A stretch of 33,551 bases of DNA from a virus, in IMG/VR virus record IMGVR_UViG_3300037262_000012, positions 1 to 33,551 of that record. One strand, 5' to 3'. Shown one piece after another: positions 3,919-30,467 of this stretch. A program made the position numbers and the translations under genes. The notes under the pieces were generated by a model. That model was not told the origin of the DNA. It did not search any database and worked only from the letters and a program-made list of their open reading frames with translations. Positions within the stretch are counted from its first letter, which is position 1. Each line of letters opens with the position of its first letter.

Positions 3919-5384
3919 CCGAACGTCACTTGCACGTTAGCCGTGGTACACGTCGGCTCTTGATCGATGCCCATCTGTAACTCATTCGACGCGGGCGTAG
4001 AGGTGAATCCGATTTCTATCGAGAGAATCTGCACCTCGGAACCGATCGCGAGCACGGGAGCGTAGTACTGGGATGCGAGGATCGCGGCTCCGCACCGAGC
4101 CCGTAGCGTACCGCTCGTGCCGTTGAACGCGTTTACGATGGCTGCTTGCACGAGCGGGATAATATTCGCAGGTAGCAGCGTGGACGTTTTCAATTCGACT
4201 GCAAAATAAACCGGCGTGTTAACGGGGGTGATTACTCCCGTCTGATACGTCGGGATGGGGTTCGAGTAGCCGCTCGTATCTTGAACTTCTTCGCTAACGA
4301 GAGTCGCCCCGGCCGTTCCGATTTGCTCTCCGGTGACTGCGCCCGATGCCACGGTTCCCGAGGTGCCGACAGTAACGGTCCCCGTGGCGCCGTTGTAAGT
4401 TCCGAGCGCCGTAACCACGGAAGCGGCCTCGACGCCGCTACCGGAGAGCGTCATACCCACGACTATATAGCCGCTCGTGGTTGTGCTGATCGTTACCGTA
4501 GCACCCGATTGCGAGCCCGTGCCGGCAAACGTTGGCTGATAAGCGCAGCCGGCGTTTAAGGCATCCCACACGGCCTGCGCTACTGCTGTCGCAAGGCCTC
4601 CGACCACAGCAACGTAGATAGAATTGGGTGCGACGGGGAAGTTCGTCGAGTTCGGATTTCCATTGATCGAATTGGGGTTCGTGAATGGCGTATTATTCTG
4701 CGTAACGAACACATCGAGCACGCCCGGAACACCCCAACAAGCCGCGTATACGGCCGGCAGGGAACCGCTACCATTCTTCGCGACCGATTGCTCGCGCCGG
4801 TATTCGAAGGCGGCCGGCGACTCCACGTTCGAGCCCGTGGCGCCCTGCGTCGGATTATTGACGACGTCCCACCCTGTGATAGCCGCGTAAATCGTCGTGA
4901 CAGTGTTCGCGGGAGCGGGCGTGGGGCCGGCGACAATGTTCGCGAACGGAAGCGTAATCGAGCCGCCGACGGGGATCTCCCCCGCCTGTGTGCAAGAGTA
5001 GATATTTCCGCTCGTGTCCTGCACGAGAGCACCGACGGGTATCGTGGTACCGAACGCACCGGTACACAGGCAATTAACCACGGTGGCGACGGCCGGCAGG
5101 CGATCGATGAAATAAAACCGGCCGATCGCATCTTGCATGAACCCGGTAGCGTTGTTCGGATTCACCTGATCCACAAGCGTCGCGATGGCTGTGTTCCCGT
5201 TGTTTATCTGCGCGGTCGTGGTCGTGGCTATCTGCCCCTGTAGCGTATTCAGCGCAGGGTTGAGATTGCCTCCGGCTCCGGCGTTTTGATCCGCCTGCAC
5301 GCCCGCGAGAATAGCGGACTCCGTCGGAGTGACGAGGCCCGTCGAGGTGAACTGCAGCGCGGGAACGTTTGTTGTGTTTGCCAT
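3915..5384 (-). CDS. Baseplate J-like wedge protein
   Basis: This 489-residue protein matches the phage baseplate J / Mu gp47 family. Visible signatures include a helical start, EYRREQSVAKNGSGSLPAVYAA (about 194-214), GVPGVLDVFVTQN (218-230), IYVAVVGG (256-263) and, after an insertion, QDTSGYSNPIPTYQ (368-381) followed by a strand-rich end. J proteins form the wedge of contractile-tail baseplates together with the gp25-like protein encoded just upstream. Residues about 285-354 are an inserted beta-rich module that breaks the usual J fold between GCAY and EEVQDTSGY; it is the same module type as in the sheath and cement proteins here. The gene lies 3 bases after the gp25-like gene and overlaps the DUF2612 gene by 4 bases. 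Confidence 0.88.
   Translation of the reverse strand: MANTTNVPALQFTSTGLVTPTESAILAGVQADQNAGAGGNLNPALNTLQGQIATTTTAQINNGNTAIATLVDQVNPNNATGFMQDAIGRFYFIDRLPAVATVVNCLCTGAFGTTIPVGALVQDTSGNIYSCTQAGEIPVGGSITLPFANIVAGPTPAPANTVTTIYAAITGWDVVNNPTQGATGSNVESPAAFEYRREQSVAKNGSGSLPAVYAACWGVPGVLDVFVTQNNTPFTNPNSINGNPNSTNFPVAPNSIYVAVVGGLATAVAQAVWDALNAGCAYQPTFAGTGSQSGATVTISTTTSGYIVVGMTLSGSGVEAASVVTALGTYNGATGTVTVGTSGTVASGAVTGEQIGTAGATLVSEEVQDTSGYSNPIPTYQTGVITPVNTPVYFAVELKTSTLLPANIIPLVQAAIVNAFNGTSGTLRARCGAAILASQYYAPVLAIGSEVQILSIEIGFTSTPASNELQMGIDQEPTCTTANVQVTFG
4323..4532 (-). other. Inserted beta-rich module in the J protein
   Basis: This encodes J residues about 285-354, with the ordered motifs TVTIS, SGYIVVGMTLSGSGVEA, VVTALGTY, GTVTV and SGTVASG. 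The same order of motifs occurs in the sheath (14050-14259) and twice in the cement-type protein (19382-19567 and 19685-19873). The surrounding J sequence is continuous with the normal family pattern once this segment is removed, so it is best read as a surface insertion. Confidence 0.75.
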
Positions 5385-5387
5385 AGT

Positions 5388-5759
5388 TTACGATATCGCA
5401 ACGGTTTGCGAATTTCCATTTATATCAGTGAATTGAACTTGTCCCGTAACGGTCCGGGCTGCTAGATCGAAAGACGAGATAACGCACGTTGCGGCGTCCA
5501 CACCCGGCACCGTAAGCGCTGCAGCTATGAACAGCTCGGAAAACACGGCCGTCGGTGGAGTCTTTCCGAACAGCTGCCCGAAGTAGTCCACGCCGAGCGT
5601 TGTGTCGTAGTAAACCTCGCCTAGCACCGTTCGGCACGCGCTAGCCACGTCCTGCGCGAGAGCGTAGGGATACGTCGCTACGGCGTAGTTTCCATTTGCA
5701 TCTAGGCATAAATCCCACGTACCGACGTCTAAAAGCATGGTGTCGTATGGTGCGGCCAT
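5388..5759 (-). CDS. gp25/W-like baseplate wedge protein
   Basis: This 123-residue protein resembles the GPW/gp25 family, small proteins that link sheath and baseplate and structurally mimic the sheath C-terminal handshake domain. The diagnostic part is the helix with VASACRTVLGEVYYDTTLGV (about 38-57), followed by DYFGQLFGK and a later strand region with GQVQFTD. Its length fits the family. It sits between the large fibre gene and the J gene, the expected neighbour of J. The start directly abuts the stop of the fibre gene. Confidence 0.82.
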   Translation of the reverse strand: MAAPYDTMLLDVGTWDLCLDANGNYAVATYPYALAQDVASACRTVLGEVYYDTTLGVDYFGQLFGKTPPTAVFSELFIAAALTVPGVDAATCVISSFDLAARTVTGQVQFTDINGNSQTVAIS

Positions 5760-7627
5760 TACAAAACCCTCCTGAAAAAATCATAAGTGGCGGAGGCGGC
5801 TTGCGAGGCGTTGATAGTCTCGCCGCCTAGAACAATAAGAGATGGCGACGTGACTCCGTTACTACTGGCAGACTGCGATAGAACGGTGCCGAAGTTCACG
5901 CCGTCCGACGAACACCCCATCGTGTAAGTAGTACCGTCAAACGACATAAGTAGATAATGCCCTAAAATCGCGCTCTGACCTACGGCGTTCGGTATGTTGC
6001 CACCTGAGACAGCCGGTATATTTGAAAAAGGCGTCAATTCAGATTGTGAGTTCCTGTTGGGGCCGTCGCTGACAGAGTGACCGGTGTAGCTGGATGAGTA
6101 ACCGCTATACCAGCATGGCTCACCGTAACTGCTGTGCCACATGTCACCCCACGAGCACGCCGCCCCGGCTGCATTGGCGACGATGAAACCCATAAAATTG
6201 TATGTTTGCGTGAGACTAAGAGATCGTACTTTAACCAGAAACGCCCATGGGGGTGATGGCAAGGGCTGTGATATTCCCTGCCAGGTGCGCGTAGGTACGC
6301 CGCCATCGGGAGGGACTACTAGCTGAATGGCGCTATTCGCTATCGTGTATGTAAGCGGATTGGAACCGTTGATGTTGAACGGGGACCACCGCGCGTTCAA
6401 CGTGGGGCTGTCAAACTCATCATTCATGCTGTTCGGAGTGACCGGAGGCATGTCGGGCGTCCACGGGAAATAAATCCCCGCATCTCCCGTACCGAGAGTC
6501 TCGACGTATCCATTTAAAACATTGATCGATGTGACGCTCGTGACGGTGTTCGTACCATCGGTGATCGCGACCGATCCGCCACCTCCGCCCGTGATGGGGT
6601 ACCATCCCTTGACGCCGCTAGCGTTCGTGCTATACGAGTACGAATTGCCGGGGCTCGCATTGTCATTCACGAGTTCGAGCGCGGAGCCGCTCCACGTGAT
6701 CGAGCCCGTAACCTCGGACGGCTGTAGGGCGGTCCCCGCGAGCGTAAGAGCGGCTTTCGCACCCGTCGACAGATCCACCGTAAGAGTTCCCGCCGTCGTG
6801 ATTGGGCCTCCGCCGACGACGACGGCCGACGAACCCGCCGAGATATCGACGCTCGTAACTGTGCCCGAGCCTCCGCCTCCCGAGCCGTTCGACGCCGCAG
6901 TGATGCGCCCGTAAGCGTCGACCGTGGCATTCATGCTCGTGTAGCTGCCGGGGGTAACTGCCGTCGTGGGCAAATCGATACTCGTCGTCGGCCCGGTCCC
7001 GTTAACGATCGTAAGATTACCGCTCGTTATATTGGTGATCCCGCCGACGCCTCCGCCCGCGTAGGGATACCAGCCCTTAGTGCCGGCGCCATTCGTGGCG
7101 TACACGTAATTGAATCCGGGCGATGCCGAATCGCCGACAAGTTCGAGCGGGCTCCCGGGTGTTCCGGCGCCCGTAATCGAATCCGCAACGCTTAGCCCGG
7201 GATCATAGGGCGGCCACGTGGGCGGAGTCGGAGGGCTCGGGATCGTACCCGGGACGAAAGTCGGTATCGTGGGAGTGCACAAACCTATGCGGGCTGCCGC
7301 TGCGGTAATGGCTGCCGTGAGTGTTGCCACCTCCGCGACTAAGGCCGCCTCCGCTGCGACGTACGCCGTATAACTCGCAAGCTGCGGCGTTAGGTAATCC
7401 GTTATATAGGTTTCCACCCACGAGATTACAGCGGTCGGATTCGTCGGAGGCGTGAGCAACGCGAGGACCGGCGCGATAGTCGCTGTCTGTGCAGTGATGG
7501 ATGCCGTTAACGAGTTCAGAGAATCTACAGCCTCGGTAGCGATCGCCTGTAGCTCTGCACACGTCGTCGAGGCTTCTATCTGCGCTGTCAGATTCGCGAA
7601 ATATTCGGTATTTATTGGTCCGCTCAT
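5759..7627 (-). CDS. Large tail fibre / receptor-binding protein with lectin-like C-terminus
   Basis: The ATG at 7627 gives a 622-residue protein and lies 3 bases after the upstream stop; the longer open frame extends into the spike gene and has a non-natural composition. Residues 1-115 are Ala/Thr-rich and helical. A proline-rich linker is at about 119-144. Two copies of a fibre repeat lie at about 158-188 and 314-345 (LELV.D.ASPG, then KGWYP), separated by Gly/Thr-rich shaft sequence with DAYGRI and GTVTSVDIS. Residues about 402-622 begin DEFDSPTLNARWSPF, a pattern seen at the start of concanavalin-like lectin domains, and continue strand-rich. I read it as a baseplate-attached fibre that recognises the host surface. 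Finding it between spike and gp25 genes is an uncommon position. Confidence 0.72.
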   Translation of the reverse strand: MSGPINTEYFANLTAQIEASTTCAELQAIATEAVDSLNSLTASITAQTATIAPVLALLTPPTNPTAVISWVETYITDYLTPQLASYTAYVAAEAALVAEVATLTAAITAAAARIGLCTPTIPTFVPGTIPSPPTPPTWPPYDPGLSVADSITGAGTPGSPLELVGDSASPGFNYVYATNGAGTKGWYPYAGGGVGGITNITSGNLTIVNGTGPTTSIDLPTTAVTPGSYTSMNATVDAYGRITAASNGSGGGGSGTVTSVDISAGSSAVVVGGGPITTAGTLTVDLSTGAKAALTLAGTALQPSEVTGSITWSGSALELVNDNASPGNSYSYSTNASGVKGWYPITGGGGGSVAITDGTNTVTSVTSINVLNGYVETLGTGDAGIYFPWTPDMPPVTPNSMNDEFDSPTLNARWSPFNINGSNPLTYTIANSAIQLVVPPDGGVPTRTWQGISQPLPSPPWAFLVKVRSLSLTQTYNFMGFIVANAAGAACSWGDMWHSSYGEPCWYSGYSSSYTGHSVSDGPNRNSQSELTPFSNIPAVSGGNIPNAVGQSAILGHYLLMSFDGTTYTMGCSSDGVNFGTVLSQSASSNGVTSPSLIVLGGETINASQAASATYDFFRRVL

Positions 7628-7629
7628 AA

Positions 7630-8217
7630 TTAGCTCGCGTTCGTCACAATGCCATTCTGAACGGTAAACACGGTTCCGGTAACATCGGTTATCGTACCCG
7701 TGTATCCCGTGCCCACCGATAGATTGCCGCTCGTCTGCACCATCGGGGACTGAATCAAAACGCTCCCGCCTAGAAACTGTATGAACTGAGAGGGCGAGGC
7801 GTTCAACAAACTTAGGGCGCCGATATACACGCCGTCGGCCCAATCGAACAGCCGAGCGCTGCCGGGATTCGCGGGGCCTTTCGCGGCCTTGACCGACGCG
7901 ATATCGCGCGAGCAAAATCCGCACAACCCGAGATCCCCCGGCTGGGGATCGCAGATTATCGCATTCGGGCCGCCCTGTGTCCGCACAAAGGGTATCCCGT
8001 ATATCTCCCCGTGCTGCACGGCTTGCCCGTTTCCGGTTAGGAGATTCACGATCACTTTGACCGTAAGCTCGCTATCCGCGATTGCGATAACCTCCACGAT
8101 CGAGAGCGTCTGTACCTTCGTCAGCGCTGCGAGGATCTGTAGGTACGTCGTATTATATTCGTGCTGATCGGCGGAGCCCGTGGCAAGGCCGAATACCGCG
8201 TTCGCTGGCGTACTCAC
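7630..8217 (-). CDS. Baseplate central spike, Gp138 N-terminal type
   Basis: This 195-residue protein matches the Gp138/gpV-type spike family. Residues about 30-125 form the OB-like domain, with VQTLSIVEVIAI, VNLLTGNGQAV, GEIYGIPFVRTQGG, PGDLGLCGFCSRDIASVK and ANPGSARLFDWADGVYIG. The C-terminal part (about 145-195) is a short strand-rich tip with repeating GNLSVGTGYTGTITDVTG-like sequence. Such proteins form the trimeric needle that pierces the outer membrane when the tail contracts. The gene overlaps the stop of the hub gene by 4 bases (ATGA). The stretch with Cys at GLCGFCSR is slightly unusual but otherwise nothing is missing. Confidence 0.88.
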   Translation of the reverse strand: MSTPANAVFGLATGSADQHEYNTTYLQILAALTKVQTLSIVEVIAIADSELTVKVIVNLLTGNGQAVQHGEIYGIPFVRTQGGPNAIICDPQPGDLGLCGFCSRDIASVKAAKGPANPGSARLFDWADGVYIGALSLLNASPSQFIQFLGGSVLIQSPMVQTSGNLSVGTGYTGTITDVTGTVFTVQNGIVTNAS

Positions 8218-9191
8218 GATGTTACCGCCGTGACGCTTGGCGGGTAGAGCAACATGTCACTAAACCATGCACCGTTCGCGGTCTCGCATTCTAGGGTATT
8301 CGTGATTGAGTTCACTACCCAATTTCCATTAGCTGACGCGTTCAGATTTCCCACGGCTGCAGCCGAAGATCCGCCGAATATCTCGACGATACAACCCGAG
8401 ATTGTAATAGGGCTCTTGACGTGAAACGCCGGGTTATACTGCGCGCGAGCCATTAGAAACCCGTTTCCTTGAGGCTGCGGGTATCCCACGAGGCCCGACT
8501 GTGGCGACAGGGTGAATGATTGGCTCTTGTCCGAGATGCCCCGAGGCGAGACGGTGACGAGCGTATCATCGCCCGAGAACACCGCGTCAAGGGCGTACGC
8601 TTGGCACACGGCGCGCAATTGTTCGAGCGGCGATTCGGGACGGTACACGGGGCCGCTCGTAACGCCCGTGACGCCATTGTTTATGTAACTCCGGTTCGTC
8701 TTAGCCACGATCACCGATAGGACCGTATCGAGCGCGGTAGAGCCCGGGAAACTCGACGGCGTAGCGGGGCTCAGTGAATCCCACGCACCCGACATGCTCG
8801 TAATGACGAGAGGCACCTCCGGGATCTGTGAGAAATCCGGGGCAGCCGTGTAGATATTTCCGGCGAACACTGCCGACCATCCCGAGCCCGAGTTCGCCTC
8901 AAGTAGGACGGAGTTCGGTAAGTAGCCGGTTTTTCCCGCGAGCGCTTGCTGAACGCAAAGGGCGTTCATATCGGCCGCGTTCATTCCATAAACCTTAATC
9001 ACGGCCTCGGGCCATGCGGGCATACCGGCCCCCTTGATCGTGGCAGATATCCGCAACGCCGGCCCCGTTGCTGGCGGCCCGAGGCGTAGCACGTTCGCCG
9101 GCTGGCCGTTTGCGTTGCCGGGGAACTGCGCGTTATTGTTGTTCAGAGTGAACGTAACGCGCAGAAGTTTTCGGGTGAAACTAGAGGGCAT
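8214..9191 (-). CDS. Baseplate hub protein (gp27/gp44/gpD-like)
   Basis: This 325-residue protein has the hallmark start of myovirus hub proteins: RKLLRVTFTL near the N-terminus, a region with ISATIKGAGMPAWPEAVIKVYGM (about 48-70) and DMNALC, then a middle region with LEQLRAVCQAYALDAVFSGDDTLVTVSPRG. Hub trimers join the tail tube to the spike and form the channel opening. It is encoded between the plug and spike genes, as expected in Mu-like and Pam3-like baseplate loci. Its start overlaps the plug gene's stop by 11 bases. A length of 325 residues is within the family's usual range. Confidence 0.8.
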   Translation of the reverse strand: MPSSFTRKLLRVTFTLNNNNAQFPGNANGQPANVLRLGPPATGPALRISATIKGAGMPAWPEAVIKVYGMNAADMNALCVQQALAGKTGYLPNSVLLEANSGSGWSAVFAGNIYTAAPDFSQIPEVPLVITSMSGAWDSLSPATPSSFPGSTALDTVLSVIVAKTNRSYINNGVTGVTSGPVYRPESPLEQLRAVCQAYALDAVFSGDDTLVTVSPRGISDKSQSFTLSPQSGLVGYPQPQGNGFLMARAQYNPAFHVKSPITISGCIVEIFGGSSAAAVGNLNASANGNWVVNSITNTLECETANGAWFSDMLLYPPSVTAVTS

Positions 9192-9540
9192 CGAGGTCGC
9201 TCTGCTCGATGTAGATCAATAGGAACTGCGATCCGAGTCCCGTGTAATAGGGTGGCTCTCCGTCGAACGTCGGCGGCCCGCTGCCTGTAACGTCCATAAA
9301 CATAAAGTCGCCCACAAAACCGAGGTACGTTACCGCGAGTAATAGCCGCACGCGGTCGAGGCATCGCACGCCCTGAATGAGATAAGCGCCGTTCGATGAG
9401 ATATCTATGAACAATCCGGCCTCTACGCCGTACGCGTCGGGCTGCGGAGTTTTCTGATAGATGCTGAACGATACTTGCTGATTCGCTAGGACCACGGTAA
9501 ACGTCTGCGAGGGAACAGCATTAATGGGTACGACTTGCAT
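9181..9540 (-). CDS. Baseplate plug protein, Pam3 gp18-like
   Basis: This 119-residue beta-rich protein resembles the cyanophage Pam3 baseplate plug family: PSQTFTVVLANQQVSFSIYQ near the start, LFIDISSNG, GVRCLDRVRLL, YLGFVGDFMFMD and, near the end, YTGLGSQFLLIYIE. In Pam3 this protein sits in the hub lumen and plugs the tail tube before infection. The gene lies between the Dit-like and hub genes, the expected place. Its start directly abuts the stop of the Dit-like gene. Confidence 0.75.
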   Translation of the reverse strand: MQVVPINAVPSQTFTVVLANQQVSFSIYQKTPQPDAYGVEAGLFIDISSNGAYLIQGVRCLDRVRLLLAVTYLGFVGDFMFMDVTGSGPPTFDGEPPYYTGLGSQFLLIYIEQSDLDAL

Positions 9541-10292
9541 TATCGGGTACCCGTCACAGTGATAGGATCGAGCGTCTGTATCGCGGCCGTGGCCTGCGTG
9601 GCGACTTGAGTCGAGGCCGGCTGTGCTTGCACGGTTCCCTGATTCACGGCCGGCACAGCGCTTGCGACAGACGCGTTCGTCGTGGGGGTGGCGCCTGTCG
9701 CACTATACTGCGCGTCCACGGTGGCGATCTGATCGAAATACAATTCGACGTCGATAATATTCGCGTTTTCGGGGCCTCTGCGCATCAGCTCGGCGCGCGT
9801 GCAATTGACGTTCATATACGTTTTTTCGGTCGTCTTTATATTCACGAGATCGAACGAGTCGACCACGGCATCGATTTGATCTAAGAACGCTTTGCGCTCG
9901 TCAGCGTTCCCCGTTTTGCGCAGGTTCACCGAGGTTTCGAACGGTAAAAATACTTTGTTGTAGCTCGCGAACGAGTTCGTCTGCACGGCATACCGCGAGA
10001 CCTTACGTTCGACTCGCCATCCAAAATCAAGCACTGAGTCGGCATCGATCACAATCGCGCCCGGGTTCGAGCCCGTGGGCTGCGAGAACACACCCCAAAC
10101 GGGCGGAGCGTTCGCGGAGTTCCACAGGGCATCTTGTTGCGCCTCGGTGGCGGCCGTTGGCCCCGCCCCCGTGGGGACGGATACTGATCGCGCGAGCTGC
10201 GGCACGCCGGGGAGTTTCGGCACGTTCGGGAACGTCGACAAATTTACCGTGATCGTAAGACCGATGCCGGCGCCTTGAGTAATTACCGTCAT
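9540..10292 (-). CDS. Dit-like tail-tip / baseplate protein
   Basis: This 250-residue protein has a central domain (about 80-190) with FGWRVERKVSRYAVQTNSFASYNKV, PFETSVNLR, ADERKAFLDQIDAVVDSFDLVNI and a closing strand IIDVELYFDQI. This is the pattern of the N-terminal domain of Dit-like proteins of myoviruses. Those proteins join the end of the tail tube to the hub. The tail of the protein (about 195-250) is a low-complexity Ala/Thr/Gln/Val region ending in LDPITVTGTR. It follows the tape-measure gene (ATGA-type overlap near 10289-10292) and precedes the plug gene, which supports the call. A tail/DNA-circulation protein of the Mu gp43 type would be the main alternative. Confidence 0.68.
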   Translation of the reverse strand: MTVITQGAGIGLTITVNLSTFPNVPKLPGVPQLARSVSVPTGAGPTAATEAQQDALWNSANAPPVWGVFSQPTGSNPGAIVIDADSVLDFGWRVERKVSRYAVQTNSFASYNKVFLPFETSVNLRKTGNADERKAFLDQIDAVVDSFDLVNIKTTEKTYMNVNCTRAELMRRGPENANIIDVELYFDQIATVDAQYSATGATPTTNASVASAVPAVNQGTVQAQPASTQVATQATAAIQTLDPITVTGTR

Positions 10293-11887: not shown

Positions 11888-11888
11888 G

Positions 11889-12535: not shown

Positions 12536-12559
12536 GTGCGTGTCCTCCCTAGGATGAGA

Positions 12560-12991
12560 TTAGATGGCTTGGACGGTGAAACTCTCGAAGGTGATTTCGT
12601 AGCTCTGCGACTCTTGGACCTTCTTGGCATCTGAGACGGGCTTAAAGCGCGTCAACGAGCCGTTATTGAACGACCACGACTTACCTAAAGCCGGAGAGTC
12701 GATCGTGGCAGAGCACGGGACGTCGTCCTGCGCGGCGTAGAGCGCGAGGTTCCAGTTATCGAACACGTCGATACTGTCGCTATCGGGCATGAGGTGAACT
12801 TGGACCTTTGTCATGTACGGCGTAAAGCCGGCAGACTTGCGGCCGTCCACGCCCATGCGGGCCTCTACGGGCGAGACGTCCTCGGCGCCGAACGCGTCGT
12901 CGACGGCGTAGCCTTGCAGCTGAAACGGCACGCCCGCGAGGCCCGGTATCGAGAGTTTGAAAATCGCATTTGCGCTTGTGATCGTCGCCAT
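12560..12991 (-). CDS. Tail tube protein
   Basis: This 143-residue protein follows the sheath gene directly, the usual place for the tube protein of contractile tails. It is strand-rich with one helix: SIPGLAGVPFQLQGYAVDDAF near the start, VEARMGVDGRKSAGFTPYMTKVQVHLMPDSDSI (about 42-74), a helix VFDNWNLALYAA (75-86) and a final strand region ESQSYEITFESFTVQAI. This layout, with the GxDGR loop before a long strand and a helix, is typical of phage and type VI secretion tube proteins. It polymerises into the rigid inner tube that passes through the cell envelope. No truncation is visible. Confidence 0.78.
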   Translation of the reverse strand: MATITSANAIFKLSIPGLAGVPFQLQGYAVDDAFGAEDVSPVEARMGVDGRKSAGFTPYMTKVQVHLMPDSDSIDVFDNWNLALYAAQDDVPCSATIDSPALGKSWSFNNGSLTRFKPVSDAKKVQESQSYEITFESFTVQAI

Positions 12992-13005
12992 TGCCTAAGC
13001 TCCGT

Positions 13006-14727
13006 TTACTGTACGTCAGTCGACGACATGGTGATTTGCTGGATCTTGCCGCCGTCCGTATACCAAAAATTGATATTCGGGGAACCGCCTTCGCCACGGA
13101 CCACAGAGCCCGGATCGAGAACCTGCAGGTACCATCCGACGTTCTGCACTGTGTTGCCGGCGTTCGGGTCGCCTGTCAGCGAGATCAAAGTCGCGATCTG
13201 CGAGCCCGAGAGCTGCACGCCCGGAACGATCGTTCCGAAGTTCAGCGCGGCCTGAATATCCGACGCGAGGGTCTCGCGAATGTCGGTGTAGCCGCGCGGG
13301 GCGTACGGGAGACCGTTCGAGCCCGTCTGCAGAGTCATCAGCGAAAGCTGGAATTCGGCGTTCAATTGGATCTGTTCGAGATAAGCGTCGGCCCATTTGA
13401 ACGGCCCCGTAACGGCACTGTTCGCGAAATAGGTGAACCGCTGGTTCCGAGTCGCGACCGCTATGTAGGAGCTGTATCCATTCCCCTTCATATTGTTATA
13501 CGACGTGGTATCGGTGACCTGCGCCACAAGGCCGGCCTGCGAGCGGTACATGAAATCGGTGGAGCCATTCTCAGTGTCGAAATTGATCGAGGCCGCGATC
13601 GCCGTCACGAAGGCTGCGATGCTACCGCCCGTGGTGTCATAGACAGGCAAGCAGCCCGAATAGCCGGCCGCAAGAGCGATCGCGCCGAAGGTGCTCGAAG
13701 CATTTGCCGTCAGCACGGCCGCGCTAGAATCTTGCGGCACATACAGATACTGGTTGTTCTGCCCGTTATTCCAGATCGCGAACGCCTCTTTATTCGAAAG
13801 CGTCTGTTCGGAAACCGTCATATACGTAGCGAAATTCTGAGTCGCAGCCGTAACGGTATTCATCACGCCGGCCGGAGTCGTGGCCGCTGCACCCGGGGAT
13901 AATACGGCGCCGGCCGCTGCAGTCAGCCCGAGGCCGGTCGTCAGCGAGTCGGCAGACGGATAACCGACGGCCGACGTGGCGCCCGTGGTGGGGCTCACAA
14001 TCTGGAACCCGCCTATCTGCGAATTGAACACCACGGTCGCGGACGAGGCGACGAGGGCCGTCCCGCTCGCAACGGTGCCGGAGGTGGACACGTTCACGGT
14101 GCCAGTGCCGGCCGTGGTCGTGTAGGTGCCGAACGTGGTAATCACCGAGTCGGCCTCGACGCCGGTCCCCGTCAGCGTATCGCCGACCGCGAGGAACCCG
14201 GAGGCCGTTGTGGAGATGGTGACGACGCCGGCCGCCTGTGAGGCCGTACCGGTGAATAGGCCGCCCGCGAACTGCAGGCCCGTCTGTACGAGACTTGCAG
14301 CATTTGAGAACGAGGTAGCGGATGACAGATTGATCGCCGCCGTGGTGACTGTGCGGCCATCGATCAAGACCGTAAATCCGGTATCCGAAAGGGCCTGCAG
14401 CTGCGTGATCGTCAGCGTAGAAACGTCAGCGCCGAGATCGTAGCCGGCGACGGCCGCCGTATTGAATTGGGCAAAATACAGAGTCTCGGGCAGCGCGGTG
14501 CAGCCCGAATAACCGGCGAAGTACACTTGCGCGAGGATCGCCTCGGCGGAGCTTGCACCGAAGTAGGCCGCGACGTCGTCGTAGCTGGAAAATGGGGTAA
14601 CGCCCCCGATCGGTATCGTCGGGTTCGACGTCAAGTAAACAGAATTCAGGGAAAGCTCGTTTCCACCCGCCGACAGGACGCCGGGGATCGCGTTCGCAAA
14701 TTGACTTGCCGGGATAGATGGAAGCAT
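13006..14727 (-). CDS. Tail sheath protein (DUF3383 type)
   Basis: This 573-residue protein resembles DUF3383-type contractile tail sheaths. Visible parts are the start with N.VYLTSNPTIPIG and SSYDDVAAYFG (about 48-57), EAILAQVYFAGYSGC (62-76), a central sheath domain, RSQAGLVAQVTDTTSYNNMKGNGYSSYIAVATRNQ (about 405-438) and the C-terminal handshake part ending INFWYTDGGKIQQITMSS. The sheath contracts to drive the tube into the host. Residues about 157-226 are an inserted module of the same type as in the J and cement proteins, which makes the protein somewhat longer than typical. The upstream leader holds an inverted repeat and AGGA as the ribosome site. Confidence 0.88.
   Translation of the reverse strand: MLPSIPASQFANAIPGVLSAGGNELSLNSVYLTSNPTIPIGGVTPFSSYDDVAAYFGASSAEAILAQVYFAGYSGCTALPETLYFAQFNTAAVAGYDLGADVSTLTITQLQALSDTGFTVLIDGRTVTTAAINLSSATSFSNAASLVQTGLQFAGGLFTGTASQAAGVVTISTTASGFLAVGDTLTGTGVEADSVITTFGTYTTTAGTGTVNVSTSGTVASGTALVASSATVVFNSQIGGFQIVSPTTGATSAVGYPSADSLTTGLGLTAAAGAVLSPGAAATTPAGVMNTVTAATQNFATYMTVSEQTLSNKEAFAIWNNGQNNQYLYVPQDSSAAVLTANASSTFGAIALAAGYSGCLPVYDTTGGSIAAFVTAIAASINFDTENGSTDFMYRSQAGLVAQVTDTTSYNNMKGNGYSSYIAVATRNQRFTYFANSAVTGPFKWADAYLEQIQLNAEFQLSLMTLQTGSNGLPYAPRGYTDIRETLASDIQAALNFGTIVPGVQLSGSQIATLISLTGDPNAGNTVQNVGWYLQVLDPGSVVRGEGGSPNINFWYTDGGKIQQITMSSTDVQ
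14050..14259 (-). other. Inserted beta-rich module in the tail sheath
   Basis: This encodes sheath residues about 157-226, with VVTIST, SGFLAVGDTLTGTGVEADSV, TTFGTYTT, GTVNV and SGTVASG in order. It is the closest match in this window to the module inserted in the J protein; GVEA, SVxTxxGTY and SGTVASG are shared almost exactly. It is likely an outward-facing loop domain on the sheath surface. Confidence 0.75.
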
Positions 14728-14738
14728 GTTTCGGGAAT

Positions 14739-14771
14739 CCTATGGGTACGTCACTACGTGGCTTCCCATAG
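14739..14771 (-). repeat. Inverted repeat in the leader of the sheath gene
   Basis: CTATGGG at 14739-14745 and CCCATAG at 14765-14771 are perfect 7-base inverted repeats. Between them lies a second small inverted pair (ACGT ... ACGT). The structure sits 12 bases upstream of the sheath ATG and would be part of its mRNA leader. It could tune translation or be an RNA processing site. Confidence 0.45.
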
Positions 14772-14785
14772 TCTCTGACATAGTT

Positions 14786-14806
14786 CCCGGGTATTCAACC
14801 CCGCTA
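14786..14806 (-). promoter_or_regulatory. Hairpin element after the neck gene (TAGC-GGGGTTGAA-type), copy 1
   Basis: On the minus strand the sequence begins at the TAG stop of the neck gene and reads TAGCGGGGTTGAATACCCGG, able to form a GGGT/ACCC stem with loop TGAAT. A close relative directly follows the stop of another late gene at 21683-21707. The stretch CCCCGCT/AGCGGGG (14799-14805 and 14814-14820) offers an alternative, longer stem. There is no U-run, so a classical terminator is not shown. Confidence 0.45.
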
Positions 14807-15391
14807 CGACTCGAGCGGGGCGAACCCTCCGGCCGGCGTCACCTGCACCGCGTTTACCGGGCCGATCACATTTGCGTATTGCTGCGGAACCGAGATCACG
14901 GGATTAAATTGCAGCACTACCTCAAGTATCCACCGTTGCTCGAACTGCGCCTCGGCGTCATCAAGGGGTGCCATAAGTGCCGGGTTCGTGTATAGCGGAG
15001 CGCACACGGGCGCAAGGGCGGTCACGGTAGCCTGATCGTGCCACACGTTCTCGATCATATGCTTCCAGTCGAACGCGGTCCCCGAGACGTTCCCCACGGT
15101 GGGACCGGAGTACAGATCGAGCTGAACCGTTACCTCATAGTGCCGCTCTATGTTTGTCTGCACGGGATCGCCGTCGGTGGGATCGTCGCCGTCGACAGGG
15201 GTATTCAGCGGGCGCGACTTAATGATAGTCATCAGAATCCCACCCGGAGCCGGGGGCGGTAGTGCCGCGCGGTTCTGATCGCCCTGCCGTACGGCGGTTT
15301 GCGGTAGGCTCGTGAGGGTGACGAGCCACGGTGCGAGCGCGGCAAACAGCTGCTCTTGAGTGATCGAGATAATGTAGTTCGGGCCGCTCAC
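14804..15391 (-). CDS. Neck / tail terminator protein (gp12-like)
   Basis: This 195-residue protein resembles the phage neck terminator family. It starts with a helix (ITQEQLFAALAPWLVTLT), then QGDQNRAALPPP, an IIKSRPLNTP turn region, ERHYEVTVQLDLYSG (about 82-96), FDWKHMIENVWHD (107-119), LAPVCAPLYTNPALMAPLDDAEAQFEQRWILEVVLQFNPVISVPQQ (125-170). These proteins cap the growing tail and join it to the head connector. It lies directly upstream of the sheath gene, as expected. It overlaps the preceding gene by 4 bases. Confidence 0.78.
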   Translation of the reverse strand: MSGPNYIISITQEQLFAALAPWLVTLTSLPQTAVRQGDQNRAALPPPAPGGILMTIIKSRPLNTPVDGDDPTDGDPVQTNIERHYEVTVQLDLYSGPTVGNVSGTAFDWKHMIENVWHDQATVTALAPVCAPLYTNPALMAPLDDAEAQFEQRWILEVVLQFNPVISVPQQYANVIGPVNAVQVTPAGGFAPLES

Positions 15392-15804
15392 GTGGGGTTG
15401 CTCGGGTCAAGCTGACGAGCCACGATCACGCGGCAGAATCCAGTCTGCCACGTCTCCGGGATCGCCTTGCACAGCCACGTATAGACGGCGCCGTTCGTTT
15501 CGGTAGGGTCCGCGAACTGCAAGAGATCGCCGCCCGTTTGCTGTGCGCGAATGATGCCGGCGATATTTCCGTACAGATGCACCGAGCGGTAAACGCCTTG
15601 CTCTTGCAGGAATGAATACCGCCGCAAATCCTGGCCGCCCACGGGCTGAACCTGCGCCGGCACGGTGACGCCTGCCGTGTACGTCGGCGTGACTTTGCCC
15701 GAGGTCGAAACGCCGGTACCCGTGGATTGTAGCCATACGACCGGGATGTCGCCGTTTATGCCGTTGATTACGCCGCGCACGACGCTGTGCATGTTGAGGT
15801 TCAT
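15388..15804 (-). CDS. Neck-region protein, function not assigned
   Basis: This 138-residue protein is beta-rich with VPAQVQPVGGQDLRRYSFLQEQGVYRSVHLYGNIAGI (about 47-83) and a late WQTGFCRVIVARQLDP. Its position between the tail completion protein and the neck terminator indicates a connector or head-tail joining role. The start overlaps the upstream stop in an ATGA arrangement, and its stop overlaps the next start. I recognise similar genes only by position in related phages, so the exact role is open; a head-tail joining or stopper protein is the most likely. Confidence 0.55.
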   Translation of the reverse strand: MNLNMHSVVRGVINGINGDIPVVWLQSTGTGVSTSGKVTPTYTAGVTVPAQVQPVGGQDLRRYSFLQEQGVYRSVHLYGNIAGIIRAQQTGGDLLQFADPTETNGAVYTWLCKAIPETWQTGFCRVIVARQLDPSNPT

Positions 15805-16322
15805 TGTCCTAGCAAGCTCCGTCCGGTTTCGACTCGATAATCGATTTTCCGCTGTAGTACACCCGTGTGGATGAGGCCATGATTGAACCCTTTAATCCGC
15901 GCCCAAGTTTCGCTGTTGTCTGCGGGCCATCTCGCTATCGTCCGCGTCATACGATCTTTCAAGGCTATGCCCACGAGGTTCAGCGTAACCTTTATGTCGT
16001 AATCTGTCGCCTTCAATGTTTTCGCAACCCGGTCGCCGATCGTGTCCGCGATCTCGTTTATTGTCGTTCGGATGAATGGCCGCGCCTTAACGTACTTCGT
16101 GCCAAATTCCATCCAAAAAGCGACTTGCGGGACCGTGACTATTTTCCCGTTCACTTTTACCGGGTAGTCGGACGAATCGATTATTCCGACTTGAACCGAG
16201 CCGCCGTTACCTATTTTGTCCGCGAGTTTCGAAAGCGCCTTGTCGAGATTTGCGCTGTTGAAAGAGAGCTTCGGGCCGGCCACAAGCTCACATCCATCCG
16301 CCGTTATCCCAACCCGGACCAT
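15801..16322 (-). CDS. Tail completion / virion morphogenesis protein (gp10-like)
   Basis: This protein of up to 173 residues carries the pattern of HK97 gp10-like tail completion proteins: a central VPQVAFWMEFGTKYVKARPFIRTTI (about 63-87), a conserved helix region IADTIGDRVAKTLKAT and a final GLIHTGVLQRKIDYRVETG (148-166). Such proteins act at the head-tail junction. The start is uncertain. The ATG at 16322 overlaps the DUF4054 gene by 35 bases and lacks a clear ribosome site. A GTG at 16283, just after that gene's stop, would give 160 residues and no overlap. The downstream stop overlaps the next start (ATGA). Confidence 0.72.
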   Translation of the reverse strand: MVRVGITADGCELVAGPKLSFNSANLDKALSKLADKIGNGGSVQVGIIDSSDYPVKVNGKIVTVPQVAFWMEFGTKYVKARPFIRTTINEIADTIGDRVAKTLKATDYDIKVTLNLVGIALKDRMTRTIARWPADNSETWARIKGFNHGLIHTGVLQRKIDYRVETGRSLLGQ

Positions 16323-16803
16323 AGCCGATATCGCTCGCGCCTATGATCCCGTTACCTTGTGGCGCCGGGATGTAATGCATGGTCCGCAGTGGCGCCGTGG
16401 TGTTCCAAAACATCGCGCCGTATTTCGTTTGCAAGAACCATGCGCTCTGCGCCGTCGTGGGGAAATCCATGCTTCCCGAGACGCTGCCTTCGCTCGCACT
16501 CGATATGCGGCCCACCGCGCCCGAGGGCTGCGATTGGTTCGCGCTGCAGGGCGTAAACAGCAACACCACGTGCGCCGTCAACAAATACAGCAACGCCTGC
16601 CGAACGTTTGCATCCGGCACGGGCGAGCCGCAGCAATTCGAGAGGTTCAGCGTTGCAAGGTAGAACGCCATTTGACACGCCGCCGAGGGCGCAGGGACGA
16701 GCGTCGTCGCGCCGAACTCAGGATAGACCGTGGTGAATTCATCGTAATCGAACTCCACCTCGCCCGTTACTATCGAACTCTGAGCACACGCGACGACGGT
16801 CAC
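16288..16803 (-). CDS. Head-tail adaptor, DUF4054 type
   Basis: This 171-residue protein matches DUF4054 head-tail connector proteins: YPEFG near residue 27, SNCCGSPVPDANVRQALLYLLTAHVVLL (about 55-82), VGRISSASEGSVSGSMDF (97-114) and QSAWFLQTKYGAMFW (118-132). The family forms a ring below the portal. Helical first half plus the conserved GRISSASEGSVS loop is diagnostic. The gene follows a small unknown gene with only 3 bases between and precedes the tail completion gene. Its C-terminal glycine-rich end (YGPGWDNGGWM) is an additional tail. Confidence 0.8.
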   Translation of the reverse strand: MTVVACAQSSIVTGEVEFDYDEFTTVYPEFGATTLVPAPSAACQMAFYLATLNLSNCCGSPVPDANVRQALLYLLTAHVVLLFTPCSANQSQPSGAVGRISSASEGSVSGSMDFPTTAQSAWFLQTKYGAMFWNTTAPLRTMHYIPAPQGNGIIGASDIGYGPGWDNGGWM

Positions 16804-16806
16804 GAC

Positions 16807-17304
16807 TTACGCCACGCCTAGACGTTTACGGGTGGCTTCCTCGGCTTCCTGGTTCTGTCGCTCTGCCGATAGTTTCGCGAGGTGCGCCTTATCCGGGTCC
16901 ACGCTCATTCGTGAATCCTTCCCACTGAGAGGGTCGATTGGCTCAATGCCGGTGCTCAGATCCTTCGTGCGATCTTTGATCTCGGAGGTATACGCATCTT
17001 TGGAATCGACGCGAAATACTGCGCCCTCTTTAACGAACTTCAAATCTTTGTTTCGGCGGAACCATTCCTCCGCGAAAGCCTCGTCCACGAGGGTCAACCC
17101 GAACTTATGCTCAGCGGGGTTCGAGCGCGCGACGCGGGCCTGATTCGCGCCCTGCAGCCATACGCGTTTTTCCGCGACGGGGGCCGGCTGACTAAAACCC
17201 ATTTCCTTGGGTACCGTCGTGATGAGTTCCATAATTAAACCCGTCGCCAGCTTGCAGCCGATGTAAACCTGTTTCGATCCTCGATTCTCTTGCGCGTTTG
17301 CCAT
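16807..17304 (-). CDS. Head-associated protein of unknown function
   Basis: This 165-residue charged protein has an N-terminal strand-rich part (KQVYIGCKLATGLIMELI), a middle segment NQARVARSNPAEHKFGLTLVDEAFAEEWFRRNKDLKFVKEGAVF (about 54-97) and a C-terminal helical tail rich in Lys, Asp and Glu. Similar small proteins lie between capsid and connector genes in related myoviruses. I do not recognise a defined function. It may be a minor capsid or assembly protein. The leader has AGGACATTCGCAC before the ATG. There is no sign of truncation. Confidence 0.5.
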   Translation of the reverse strand: MANAQENRGSKQVYIGCKLATGLIMELITTVPKEMGFSQPAPVAEKRVWLQGANQARVARSNPAEHKFGLTLVDEAFAEEWFRRNKDLKFVKEGAVFRVDSKDAYTSEIKDRTKDLSTGIEPIDPLSGKDSRMSVDPDKAHLAKLSAERQNQEAEEATRKRLGVA

Positions 17305-17317
17305 TTGTGCGAATGTC

Positions 17318-17791
17318 CTATGCTTGGAATTGATACGGTGAAATAATCCCGAGGCAATTGGGCGCGATATTTTCTGCTACCTTCCATCGCGTCGCCACGT
17401 ACCCGAGGGTGTTTGTCCCGTAGAGTATACCCGTCGTGGGGTCCGTGTACACCTGTGCCCCGTACAGAGCCCCTAGGGGCATCCGAACATAGATATCCGC
17501 ACAGGTGATGAGGGTACAGTTCTTGCCGGCGCGGAGCATGCGTACGGGCGGCCCGGGCGGGTTCGGCTGCAAGTACGTGAGAGCCCATAGACCGGGACGA
17601 GGCTGGATAATGCCCATGGCGCCGGCTGTCTGTGAGTTCGAGACTTCGCCGGTGACCGGATCTTGCCAGCCCATGCGGCCTACGGCGATATCAACCGGGC
17701 CGACGACAGTGTTACCGGGGAGGGTAAAAACGGGGTTTCGGGTACCGTAGGCTCCCTCATAGATACCGAAGGGCGCGCGGAAAGGACGCAC
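17318..17791 (-). CDS. Capsid-region protein of unknown function
   Basis: This 157-residue protein starts at a GTG with AGG six bases upstream. It is beta-rich, with VDIAVGRMGWQDPVTGEVSN (about 33-52), CTLITCADIYVRMPLGALYGAQVYTDPTTG (93-122) and ATRWKVAENIAPNCLGIISPY (133-153). The pattern GA.YGAQVYTDPTTG is similar to a motif in cement-type proteins (compare GQAVYADPVTGA in the gene at 19343-20302), so a capsid decoration or cement role is reasonable but inferred. It is encoded 4 bases after a 63-residue gene in the capsid block. Confidence 0.5.
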   Translation of the reverse strand: MRPFRAPFGIYEGAYGTRNPVFTLPGNTVVGPVDIAVGRMGWQDPVTGEVSNSQTAGAMGIIQPRPGLWALTYLQPNPPGPPVRMLRAGKNCTLITCADIYVRMPLGALYGAQVYTDPTTGILYGTNTLGYVATRWKVAENIAPNCLGIISPYQFQA

Positions 17792-17795
17792 GAGC

Positions 17796-17987
17796 CTAGA
17801 TCGTGAAAGAGACGGCCGCCGTAGTGCCTAGGGTACCTACCTGTACCCACGTGCCGGTATTCTCATACAGGTACACGTCTTTCGTATCGGTCTCGATGAA
17901 CTTCGAGCCGATGCCGGCAGCGGGTTTCGTGTCCGTGGAGAGACCCATGTACACGAGACTTGTTTGAGGGGCGTAAGTTTGAATCAT
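17796..17987 (-). CDS. Small capsid-region protein
   Basis: This 63-residue protein reads like a small beta-hairpin domain: FIETDTKDVYLYENTGTWVQVG in the second half resembles short phage proteins with a (F/Y).E.DT..V....G.W pattern. The start overlaps the upstream gene stop (ATGA). Such proteins are often encoded after the major capsid gene. No function is known to me; a role as a small virion component is an inference from position. Confidence 0.55.
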   Translation of the reverse strand: MIQTYAPQTSLVYMGLSTDTKPAAGIGSKFIETDTKDVYLYENTGTWVQVGTLGTTAAVSFTI

Positions 17988-18199
17988 GGTTCACAATAGT
18001 GAGCGTCGATGCCCTCGCCTAAAGTCTTAACGTCCGGGTGTTCCCCGGTCTCGATCCGCTGATGTTCCTGCAGGTGCGCAGCGAGCTTTTCGGCCTCTGT
18101 CAGCGCGGGCGCAGCGAGCTTTTCGGCCTCTGTCAGCGCGGGCGCAGCGGGGGATTTCACCCCGCCGCGCCAGCCCGTGAGCGTCTGTCGGCGTCGCAT
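17984..18199 (-). CDS. Small protein with a tandem-duplicated segment, after the capsid gene
   Basis: The ATG at 18199 overlaps the capsid gene stop (TAATG) and gives a 71-residue protein; a longer frame reaching back to 18277 would run far into the capsid gene and is unlikely. Residues about 20-41 are an exact duplication of an 11-residue unit (PALTEAEKLAA twice), followed by HLQEHQRIETGEHPDVKTLGEGIDAHYC. The duplication is exact at the DNA level (18076-18108 and 18109-18141). Helical, charged, no recognisable fold. It could be a minor capsid-associated protein. Confidence 0.6.
   Translation of the reverse strand: MRRRQTLTGWRGGVKSPAAPALTEAEKLAAPALTEAEKLAAHLQEHQRIETGEHPDVKTLGEGIDAHYCEP
18076..18141. 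repeat. Perfect 33-base tandem duplication
   Basis: Two identical 33-base copies, 18076-18108 and 18109-18141, are followed by the first 8 bases of a third. The unit length keeps the reading frame of the small gene on the minus strand and adds 11 residues per copy. Identity in every base suggests a recent slippage or recombination event. Confidence 0.9.
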
Positions 18200-19296
18200 T
18201 ATCCGAGCATCTGCACGCAAAGGAACGGACGGTACCAGATGGCGCCGTAACCCGCCGAGCTGCGCTTCTGCTTCCACGAGGACGACTCGACGACCATGTT
18301 GTGAGCCATCATCCTGGAACTGAAAGCGGTCTCAACCGTTTTCTGGCCTCCCAATTCGTCACAAATCAGCTGCATGAGCTGGCCCTGTGCCGTGGCGTAC
18401 TGTACCGCCGTCACAATGCGCAAGTTGGGGAAGTTCTCTTTCAGCAACACCTCAACCGAATTGGTGTTGTACTGAGTGATCTGTTTCAAAGCACCGCGCT
18501 GCACGGGGCTCATCGCCAGAGTCATCGGCACGTCTTCTCGGATCACGCCATTCGACTGCGCCTGCAGCTGAATGAACATGCGCACCACGTCTTGATATAT
18601 CGTGTACGCGGTCGCGCTCGCGCTCGTCAGCCACGAGAACTGCGGGGTCAGAGCCGGGGGCAACGTGGGGTCATTGAGCAACCCGTAGTTTTCCAGGTTC
18701 GCGACACCGTAGAAATAAATGTCATTCAGCTGTTTCATCAACGCGAGAGCGTTTGCGTTTTGCTGTTGGGTGGCCCAATCCAGTTTCGCCAAGCCGGCGA
18801 TTTCAAGTTCGCGCTGTCCGTACTGTAGGAACGCTTGGAACACGAAGTTCTGACGGCTCGGAAAGTTCGCATTCACCGTGGTGTAGCCGCTGTTCGAGTA
18901 GTCGCCGTACGCGGCAGTCTTTCCACCCGCTTCAACGGTGATGAACTGCGCCGTCTCGGTCACCCACGTGCCTTTCTGCACGTCGGGGGCGATTTCGTTC
19001 GCCACCATCGGGGATACGAGAACGTTGATGACCTTGGGGTCCAAGAAGTTCGCGAGATACGACGGAATGCCCGCGTTCGAAACGGTCACGAGTTCCGACT
19101 GCGCATCCATGGCGGCCATCGCGCGCTCGAAGTGTTTCAGGTTCACGCCCGGCTTAAGCCAGCGCATTTCGCCCAAGGAGGCATCAAAAATGATGCCCTT
19201 CTCTTCGGCGAGCTGCCGGATCAATTCAGGGCCTTGTCCCGCGATAATCGCAGCACCGAAGGCTTTTGCATCGAACGCCAATTGACGATTAAACAT
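18199..19296 (-). CDS. Major capsid protein (DUF2184 type, HK97 fold)
   Basis: This 365-residue protein matches DUF2184-type major capsid proteins. Signatures include IPSYLANFLDPKVINVLVSPMVANEIAPDVQKGTW (about 76-110), GGKTAAYGDYSNSGYTTVNANFPSRQNFVFQ (123-153), YGQRELEIAGLAKLDW and KQLNDIYFYGVANLENYGLLNDPTLPPALTPQ (about 188-219). It forms the icosahedral shell after scaffold-directed assembly and protease action. The cement-type gene lies just upstream and the small duplicated gene overlaps its stop. The ribosome site is CAGGA in a leader that shares CATCAGGAA with the leader of the cement gene. Confidence 0.88.
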   Translation of the reverse strand: MFNRQLAFDAKAFGAAIIAGQGPELIRQLAEEKGIIFDASLGEMRWLKPGVNLKHFERAMAAMDAQSELVTVSNAGIPSYLANFLDPKVINVLVSPMVANEIAPDVQKGTWVTETAQFITVEAGGKTAAYGDYSNSGYTTVNANFPSRQNFVFQAFLQYGQRELEIAGLAKLDWATQQQNANALALMKQLNDIYFYGVANLENYGLLNDPTLPPALTPQFSWLTSASATAYTIYQDVVRMFIQLQAQSNGVIREDVPMTLAMSPVQRGALKQITQYNTNSVEVLLKENFPNLRIVTAVQYATAQGQLMQLICDELGGQKTVETAFSSRMMAHNMVVESSSWKQKRSSAGYGAIWYRPFLCVQMLG

Positions 19297-19303
19297 GTGT
19301 TTT

Positions 19304-19315
19304 TCCTGATGTCCT
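19304..19315 (-). promoter_or_regulatory. Ribosome binding region of the capsid gene
   Basis: The minus strand reads GACATCAGGAAAAACACATG into the capsid start; AGGA lies 7 bases before the ATG. A near-copy (GCCATCAGGAACAAG) precedes the cement gene at 20302. The two genes are likely the most abundantly made virion proteins, so a shared leader is plausible for strong translation. Confidence 0.5.
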
Positions 19316-19342
19316 AACGATTACGCTATGGGCCTACCGCGC

Positions 19343-20302
19343 TTACTGCGGGAGGCTCGTGATGACGCCGACTTGACCTTGCTCACCGGTGATCGTGGTG
19401 GAGGCAACGGTGCCGCTCCACGAGACGAGGTACGTTGAACCGCTGCCGCCCGAGCCCGTGAGTAGCTGCAGGATCTGCACGTTCGCCGGGATGCCCGTGC
19501 CGCTGATGAAATCGCCCACGCTCACGGTTCCGGTCGGAGCCGCGCCGAGAGTCAGCGTACCGTAGAGACCGGTCGCGCCCGGAGCAATCGTAGAGGTGGC
19601 AACCGAGAACCCGGCATCAACCGGGGAGCCCACGGTGTAAATCGTCTCTTGCGGCCCAAGGGTCGATCCGCCCGTGGTGGCGCCGACCGCCGCAATGGCG
19701 GTACCGTTCACGTTCGCCAGGTTGTAGGTACCGTCACCCCCGGTGCCAGTGCCGAGGCTCACGATGTAGGTGCCCTCAGGCAATGTGCCCAAAAGAACCA
19801 GCTGGCCCACGGCCAGGGTACCCGTAACGCCGGTGACGGTCAGTACTCCACCCGCAGCCACAGAGCCCGCAAGCGCCGTGGTGCCAGCGTTGCTCGGGGC
19901 GCCGGCAGTCGCCGCACCCGTGACGGGATCCGCGTAGACGGCCTGTCCAACGGTGGCCCCGCCCGCGAAAATCGCGAGGTAGTCACCGTAGCTCATGCCG
20001 GTGACCATGTTGCCCGGGACGACGGTCAAAGTCGCGATCCCGAGGAACTGAGTGATGAGGCCGTTGTTTTCGCGATGCACGAACCCGAGGAAACCCGTTG
20101 CCTTGTAATAGTTCGAGGCAATCCCCGTGGTGGGATCGAACCAGGCGAACGAGCCGACATTCACGCCGGCAGCGGGAGCCACGAACTGGTTGGGGCCGGC
20201 GACAATGGCCGCACGAGGGTTCACCGAGGCGAAATCGCCCGGGACACCGATCGGCAGTTCATTGTTGACGAACTGTTGAAAACCGTTACGAGTAATGCTC
20301 AT
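19343..20302 (-). CDS. Structural cement / decoration protein with two beta modules
   Basis: This 319-residue protein begins like cement proteins found directly upstream of DUF2184 capsid genes: NGFQQFVNNELPIGVPGDFASVNPRAAIVAGPNQFVAP (about 6-43), VGSFAWFDPTTGIASN, GFLGFVHRENNGLITQFLGIATLTVVPGN (70-98) and ATVGQAVYADPVTGAA. After about residue 144 it carries two beta-rich modules (about 144-206 and 246-307) with the TLTV..V.GTLAVGQ / GTLTLG..PTGTVSVGDFISGTGI pattern, Gly-rich turns and a VASTTITGEQ end. These are not needed for the basic cement fold and are of the same type as insertions in J and sheath. The protein probably coats the capsid surface. Confidence 0.72.
   Translation of the reverse strand: MSITRNGFQQFVNNELPIGVPGDFASVNPRAAIVAGPNQFVAPAAGVNVGSFAWFDPTTGIASNYYKATGFLGFVHRENNGLITQFLGIATLTVVPGNMVTGMSYGDYLAIFAGGATVGQAVYADPVTGAATAGAPSNAGTTALAGSVAAGGVLTVTGVTGTLAVGQLVLLGTLPEGTYIVSLGTGTGGDGTYNLANVNGTAIAAVGATTGGSTLGPQETIYTVGSPVDAGFSVATSTIAPGATGLYGTLTLGAAPTGTVSVGDFISGTGIPANVQILQLLTGSGGSGSTYLVSWSGTVASTTITGEQGQVGVITSLPQ
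19382..19567 (-). other. Beta-rich module in the cement protein, distal copy
   Basis: This encodes residues about 246-307, with LYGTLTLG, GTVSVGDFISGTGIPANV, ILQLLTGSGGSGSTYLV and SGTVASTTITGEQ. The GTVAS...TGEQ ending matches the end of the J-protein module (GTVASGAVTGEQ) closely. Confidence 0.7.
19685..19873 (-). other. Beta-rich module in the cement protein, proximal copy
   Basis: This encodes residues about 144-206, with GGVLTVTGVTGTLAVGQLVL, a short GTLPEGTYIVSLGTGTGG turn and DGTYNLANVNGTAIAAV. It has the same order of strands as the distal copy, but the loop after the second strand is shorter (PEGTY in place of GTGIPAN). Confidence 0.68.
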
Positions 20303-30314: not shown

Positions 30315-30467
30315 ATGCGCTACACGAGCTTTTACAAGTCCTACCAAATGTTCATCTACGACGACGGCCGCGCCTTCGTGGTACTGCCGGGCGAGTCTCG
30401 CTGGTTCGCCAGCAACCCGGACGCGAAAACTGGGATAACGAATTTCCTCAAGAGGTTACGAAAATGA
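30315..30467 (+). CDS. 50-residue protein at the head of the accessory cluster
   Basis: This short gene begins at the ATG at 30315 and ends with a TGA overlapping the next ATG (ATGA at 30464). It reads MRYTSFYKSYQMFIYDD... followed by GRAFVVLPGESRWFASNPDA and a basic end KRLRK. The composition is natural for a small folded protein. It lacks a clear ribosome site, which may mean translation from a leaderless or very short leader. No family is recognised. Confidence 0.6.
   Translation: MRYTSFYKSYQMFIYDDGRAFVVLPGESRWFASNPDAKTGITNFLKRLRK

Follow-up and report, generated by a model that had tools for sequence, protein, structure and literature searches.

The four segments described here are likely to represent a single beta module, phage-borne and self-folding, that measures about 75 residues, is lodged in loops of virion proteins and is copied from gene to gene. 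They lie in a 33,551-nt stretch of viral DNA (IMGVR_UViG_3300037262_000012, hereafter the window) from a phage with a contractile tail, of the same kind as E217, XM1 and GF-2. The copies are homologous, are inserted in loops whose empty counterparts are found in near relatives, have moved between genes, are restricted to certain virion proteins and are nearly restricted to phage DNA.

Four homologous copies in three virion proteins

The genes hosting the module encode a baseplate J-like wedge protein (hereafter J), the tail sheath and a cement protein, all on the minus strand within one structural gene cluster. Profile matches outside the inserts make these assignments firm: J matched PF04865 over the cut-off and phrog_6 with E 3e-51, the sheath matched DUF3383 with E 1.2e-101, and the cement protein matched PF23982 with E 9e-20 and PF22758 (XM1 gp53 minor capsid) with E 3e-11. 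The relevant features of the window are as follows, residue numbers being profile limits.

3915..5384, minus strand: baseplate J-like wedge protein, hosting one module
4305..4541, minus strand: module copy in J, residues 282-360, core position 275/276
13006..14727, minus strand: tail sheath (DUF3383), hosting one module
14035..14256, minus strand: module copy in the sheath, residues 158-231, core position 155/156
14804..15391, minus strand: phrog_1876 protein adjoining the sheath gene, tail terminator by position, without module
16288..16803, minus strand: head-tail connector, without module
19343..20302, minus strand: cement / minor capsid protein, hosting two modules
19373..19588, minus strand: module copy 2 in the cement protein, residues 239-310
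19667..19882, minus strand: module copy 1 in the cement protein, residues 141-212

An initial annotation had placed related segments in J, the sheath and, twice, the cement protein; all four were found there, each of about 75 residues and homologous to the others, and the host families it had named agreed with the profile matches. The J and sheath copies shared 58% identity over 65 residues (pairwise blastp, E 3e-14) and 71% identity over 110 nt of DNA. Cement copy 2 matched the J copy (E 4e-7), the sheath copy (E 6e-6) and cement copy 1 (E 2e-5). Against composition-keeping shuffles, z was 16 for J-sheath, 6.2 for J-cement 2, 5.5 for sheath-cement 2 and 5.0 for cement 1-cement 2. Direct matches of cement copy 1 to J and the sheath were weak (E 0.1-0.3; z 1.1 and 2.9, respectively); its match to the iterated family profile had an E of 6e-11, this profile having been seeded with copy 1 itself. 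Cement copy 1 also matched ribosomal protein uL2 weakly, which was put down to chance.

The module is rich in Gly, Thr and Ser, so that convergence of low-complexity sequence could be held to explain the likeness without common descent, and the cement copy 1 values against J and the sheath, hardly above those of shuffles, would fit such an account. It is nevertheless very improbable given the E and z values for J and sheath, the likeness of these copies at the DNA level, a motif that keeps its order along about 75 positions in 302 domains, and a strand pattern that is identical in models of the lone module and of the whole sheath.

Four further observations concern other genes of the window. 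The DUF2612 baseplate protein (1516-3918, minus strand) is extended at its N terminus by about 600 residues that include two PASTA domains; its reference homologues have about 200 residues, and several relatives of the window are also extended, the whole protein reaching up to 866 residues. A second, shorter cement-like protein (17318-17791, minus strand) is encoded on the opposite side of the major capsid gene to the cement protein with modules, and its homologues carried the module in 0/24 viral and 0/1 prophage cases. A long ORF without family matches (5759-7831, minus strand) lies between the spike and sheath-initiator genes, and in several relatives a stretch related to its product is fused in one ORF with the spike. 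A small protein encoded at 30464-30973 (plus strand) contains pentapeptide-like repeats (ADLSG).

Loop insertions and empty sites

Host proteins in the window are longer than those of reference phages: 573 residues versus 488-495 in eight phages for the sheath, 489 versus 369-410 in seven phages for J, and 319 versus 160-174 for the cement protein. Alignments of the sheath and J with reference phages closed cleanly on both sides of the module, and near relatives provided empty sites. In loci L011, L024 and L029 the J protein reads (A/G)YQTA-(T/A)GSAGA where the window has AYQPT-[module]-GTAGA, and in the sheaths of L040 and L073 the residues QTGL or QTGI run directly into the next strand. Because homologues from known phages lack the modules and close relatives offer clean empty sites, the modules are loop insertions. 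In the alignment the two cement copies also look like loop insertions, since core sequence reappears between the copies and again after the second; the insert boundary is less clean in this protein than in J and the sheath. No target-site duplication was noticed when filled and empty sites were compared. The module is thus a separable insert, as the initial annotation had proposed; far from being present in all sheath and J homologues as part of the fold, the segment is absent from many.

In the sheath, all copies but one occupied one shared site, and copies in the head-tail connector were also at a single site. J accepted the module at three sites, at core positions 233-241, 275/276 and 376-385 of 405.

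Distribution among virion proteins

Scans with single sheath proteins found no relatives; scans with alignments did. Sheath and J alignments yielded a viral set of 160 loci, some of them overlapping, and a separate scan of bacterial genomes yielded a prophage set of 80 loci, about 240 in all. Starting from the four copies in the window, an iterated profile detected 302 domains in 226 proteins. In the viral set, whose counts include near-duplicates, the module was carried by 56/83 cement proteins, 77/142 sheaths, 58/132 J proteins, 14/102 head-tail connectors, 6/127 phrog_1876 proteins, 11/124 tail fibres and 1/119 of one further neck protein; sheath and J queries favour loci with inserts in those two genes, a bias that leaves the counts of the other genes untouched. 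Three further module-bearing ORFs fell outside the assigned families. By contrast with these carriers, no module was found in this set in 137 tube, 107 tape-measure, 124 and 136 hub, 136 spike, 69 protease or 70 major capsid proteins. The prophage set gave 15/61 for cement, 11/81 for sheath, 14/61 for J, 13/77 for phrog_1876 and 1/65 for the neck protein, and none for 80 tube, 34 tape-measure, 60 and 66 hub, 70 spike, 61 protease and 67 major capsid proteins, nor for connectors and tail fibres. Upstream of the sheath gene, locus L036 contains three cement-like ORFs with two modules in each.

Seven host families thus carry the module overall, with sporadic presence, empty sites and repeated gain and loss. 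When families were classed by location according to PMC10329688, PMC11042391 and PMC10457771, a classification made after the counts were seen, carriers comprised 7/13 exposed and 0/8 buried families (one-sided hypergeometric p about 0.015). Exposure is not sufficient, since the major capsid protein, DUF2612 and the sheath initiator are exposed and never carried the module in the loci studied. Host counts in the two sets, combined with locations published for related phages of solved structure, agree with the earlier suggestion that the module decorates virion surfaces, its hosts being restricted to proteins that lie on the outside of the particle in those phages.

Among 16 whole bacterial genomes, 11 contained the module, always on the prophage-bearing contig apart from a few copies that two of these genomes had on another contig. 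Named carriers belong to Rhizobium, Mesorhizobium, Bradyrhizobium, Methylobacterium, Rhodovarius and Paraburkholderia, among other genera, with Rhizobium freirei PRF 81, Bradyrhizobium oropedii and Methylobacterium variabile as examples; in relatives of Rhizobium freirei the module was found in 0/60 genomes. Searches of isolated phages by tblastn with the module returned little or nothing, which low-complexity masking may explain. The module fold was also present in predicted viral proteins from uncultured phages, among them an HK97 capsid protein and some that resemble fibres, so the module extends beyond the phage group of the window. In the capsid example, BFVD A0A6J5SIT1, a predicted major capsid protein of HK97 type contains the fold (TM 0.79, rmsd 1.4).

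Position on the particle

The myophages E217, Pa193 and XM1 have sheath, J wedge and connector proteins of the same families as the window and a cement protein of the same Pfam families. No module is present in their sheath or J, and their sheaths are about 18-24% identical to that of the window. The model of the window sheath matched the Pa193 sheath with Z 36.7 and the E217 sheath with Z 35.9. The insert falls between Pa193-equivalent residues 148 and 156 and thus inside the equivalent of the flexible domain (residues 91-210) that the authors of that structure set apart from the core (PMC11042391). All three J sites lie in the part that matches domain III of XM1 gp16 by position, and J-type wedges form the outer baseplate layer (PMC10457771). 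Minor capsid trimers of the XM1 gp53 type are located on the capsid surface (PMC10457771). Neither the cement profile nor two neck proteins found relatives in the PDB, so virion positions for these three rest on Pfam or PHROG labels, gene order or published work. By analogy with the E217, Pa193 and XM1 structures, we infer that the modules are exposed on the outside of the virion. If the stoichiometry of E217 and Pa193 applies (204 sheath, about 12 J and about 180 cement subunits, the latter with two modules each), a particle would display several hundred copies (PMC10329688, PMC11042391).

Movement between genes

In a tree of 55 modules, seven J copies of the window type were placed within a 20-member set that otherwise consisted of sheath copies only (support 99/98). 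AU tests rejected trees in which all J copies were held together (p 0.0008) or all sheath copies were held together (p 0.005). In a larger tree, J copies from site 376-385 (the J377 class) were placed among cement copies. The modules are short, the trees leave many forks open and bootstrap values had not yet converged. Since trees and AU tests reject a single origin per gene, the module moves between virion genes; these results and the three J sites bear out the initial proposal of a domain that spreads between structural genes. Copying from sheath to J and from cement to J would be the simplest directions, judging from unrooted trees. The nearest neighbor of most copies lies in the same gene, indicating that vertical descent dominates and that movement is occasional. 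On the tree of sheath cores, module presence changed 10-11 times per gene.

These observations suggest a mechanism in which a new host gene would receive its module as an in-frame copy from a different virion gene within the phage lineage. J copies of the window type would derive from sheath copies, and those of the other J class from cement copies; modules would then be gained, lost and duplicated in tandem. Placement in loops of virion proteins would leave the core folds undisturbed. J and sheath copies from the same phage had a likeness of 0.455 versus 0.372 in permuted pairs, a figure that includes shared descent.

Coordinated decoration of capsid, sheath and baseplate, which had also been put forward, fared less well. 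Raw co-occurrence in sheath, J and cement was strong, with none of the three bearing a module in 28/72 phages and all three in 22/72. After correction for kinship, sheath and J gave 4.0 concordant versus 0.7 discordant pairs, a tendency that was not significant.

Fold, composition and database matches

AlphaFold predicted the lone sheath module confidently as a small six-stranded beta fold, and the same strands were obtained in the model of the whole window sheath (pLDDT 92). Top-ranked among the PDB fold matches were domain 2 of translation factors and the F1-ATPase barrel, all weak (Z up to 6.7); they suggest a barrel, the probable form of the module, but are too weak for a fold to be assigned. 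Sequence searches with the module in Pfam, NCBIfam and the PDB found no relative, and a PDB profile search gave nothing significant. Internal stretches of two PHROG families correspond to the module: 21413 (unknown), matched by 79/120 members, and 38233 (tail fibre), matched by 64/120. Both are whole-protein families of large proteins in which the module itself is undefined. The motif strings had no match in the literature searched, where the only precedents found were Ig-like.

An ordinary Ig-like domain, of the promiscuous class known from phages, would behave in the same manner, occurring sporadically and on the surface in several classes of virion genes (PMC7602432; PMC9230969). This identity is unlikely for the module: Pfam scans of 120 members gave no Ig family at the cut-off, the best being Big_1 at E 0.043 in one member, and the top PDB matches were the barrels mentioned above, although such weak matches are not proof. 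Ig-like families were not among the PDB fold matches listed, which is no evidence of a different fold. No match to BACON was obtained in the Pfam scans. An Ig-like or BACON fold, with which the initial annotation had proposed a comparison, is not supported by these matches.

Modules are made up of 21% Thr and 17% Gly, with few aromatic residues; Gly and hydrophobic residues account for most of their conserved columns. In loci L011-L170, charged residues amounted to 3.3% in modules versus 8.4% in the rest of the host proteins, and Lys plus Arg to 0.4% versus 3.1%.

Putative role

Hundreds of copies might alter the behavior of the virion surface through weak multivalent contact. Tentatively, and with low confidence, we suggest that numerous weak contacts made by the copies change how the virion meets its surroundings, the likeliest form being low-affinity adhesion to polymers of the cell surface or extracellular space. 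The scarcity of aromatic and near absence of basic residues count against adhesion, and the former speaks mildly against a classic sugar-binding platform, sugar binding having been a tentative proposal of the initial annotation.

The same anatomy and spread would also suit a different purpose, that of a neutral, uncharged, Thr/Ser/Gly-rich spacer or shield that binds nothing and lowers non-specific sticking, proteolysis or recognition. The low charge, the Thr and Gly content, the few aromatics and the type of conserved columns all agree with shielding, but composition by itself demonstrates no function, and tail fibres, where a binding part would be expected, also carry the module. Taken alone, shielding is rather unlikely; at low confidence it appears nearly as plausible as weak adhesion, and stabilization less so. 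For the latter, modules would contact neighboring subunits and staple cement trimers, sheath rings or wedges. Extra sheath domains have been suggested to stabilize the disk of phage 812 (PMC9230969), and cement proteins reinforce capsids (PMC7602432). Stabilization is nonetheless improbable, given that the repeated loss and gain in near relatives described above implies dispensable modules and that one module is unlikely to find matching contacts in unrelated geometries.

Discussion

Promiscuous surface domains of phages are already known; in the present case the module is another one, and its passage from gene to gene can be followed with unusual clarity. The Ig-like domains found in tailed phages (Fraser et al. 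2006, cited in PMC9230969 and PMC7602432) are described there in several virion classes (fibres, baseplate, tail, head and decoration proteins), at the surface and as dispensable, traits shared by the module. Unlike them, it has no assigned Ig family or fold, and it offers several copies per virion gene set, traceable copying between genes and empty sites. Like the extra domains of tail sheaths (PMC9230969), for which weak adhesion or stability was likewise proposed, it is added away from the tube-facing core; unlike those Ig-like sandwiches, it also occurs in capsid, neck, baseplate and fibre proteins.

It is quite possible, if somewhat short of an even chance, that a phage-exclusive domain is copied among the genes of one virion and lands in surface loops, either those it already used or new ones; capsid, neck, sheath, baseplate and fibres of a particle would then have one interchangeable outer coat in common. 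One group of tailed phages appears to re-dress its outside by shuffling a single domain between structural genes. For known promiscuous domains, the route into many structural genes has mostly been deduced from sporadic occurrence; here, thanks to empty sites, three J loops and nested gene trees, the route can be tested, and this in prophages whose bacterial hosts are named and culturable. As an unnamed domain that marks insertion-tolerant loops on contractile-tailed phages, the module also aids annotation and the reading of virion structures.
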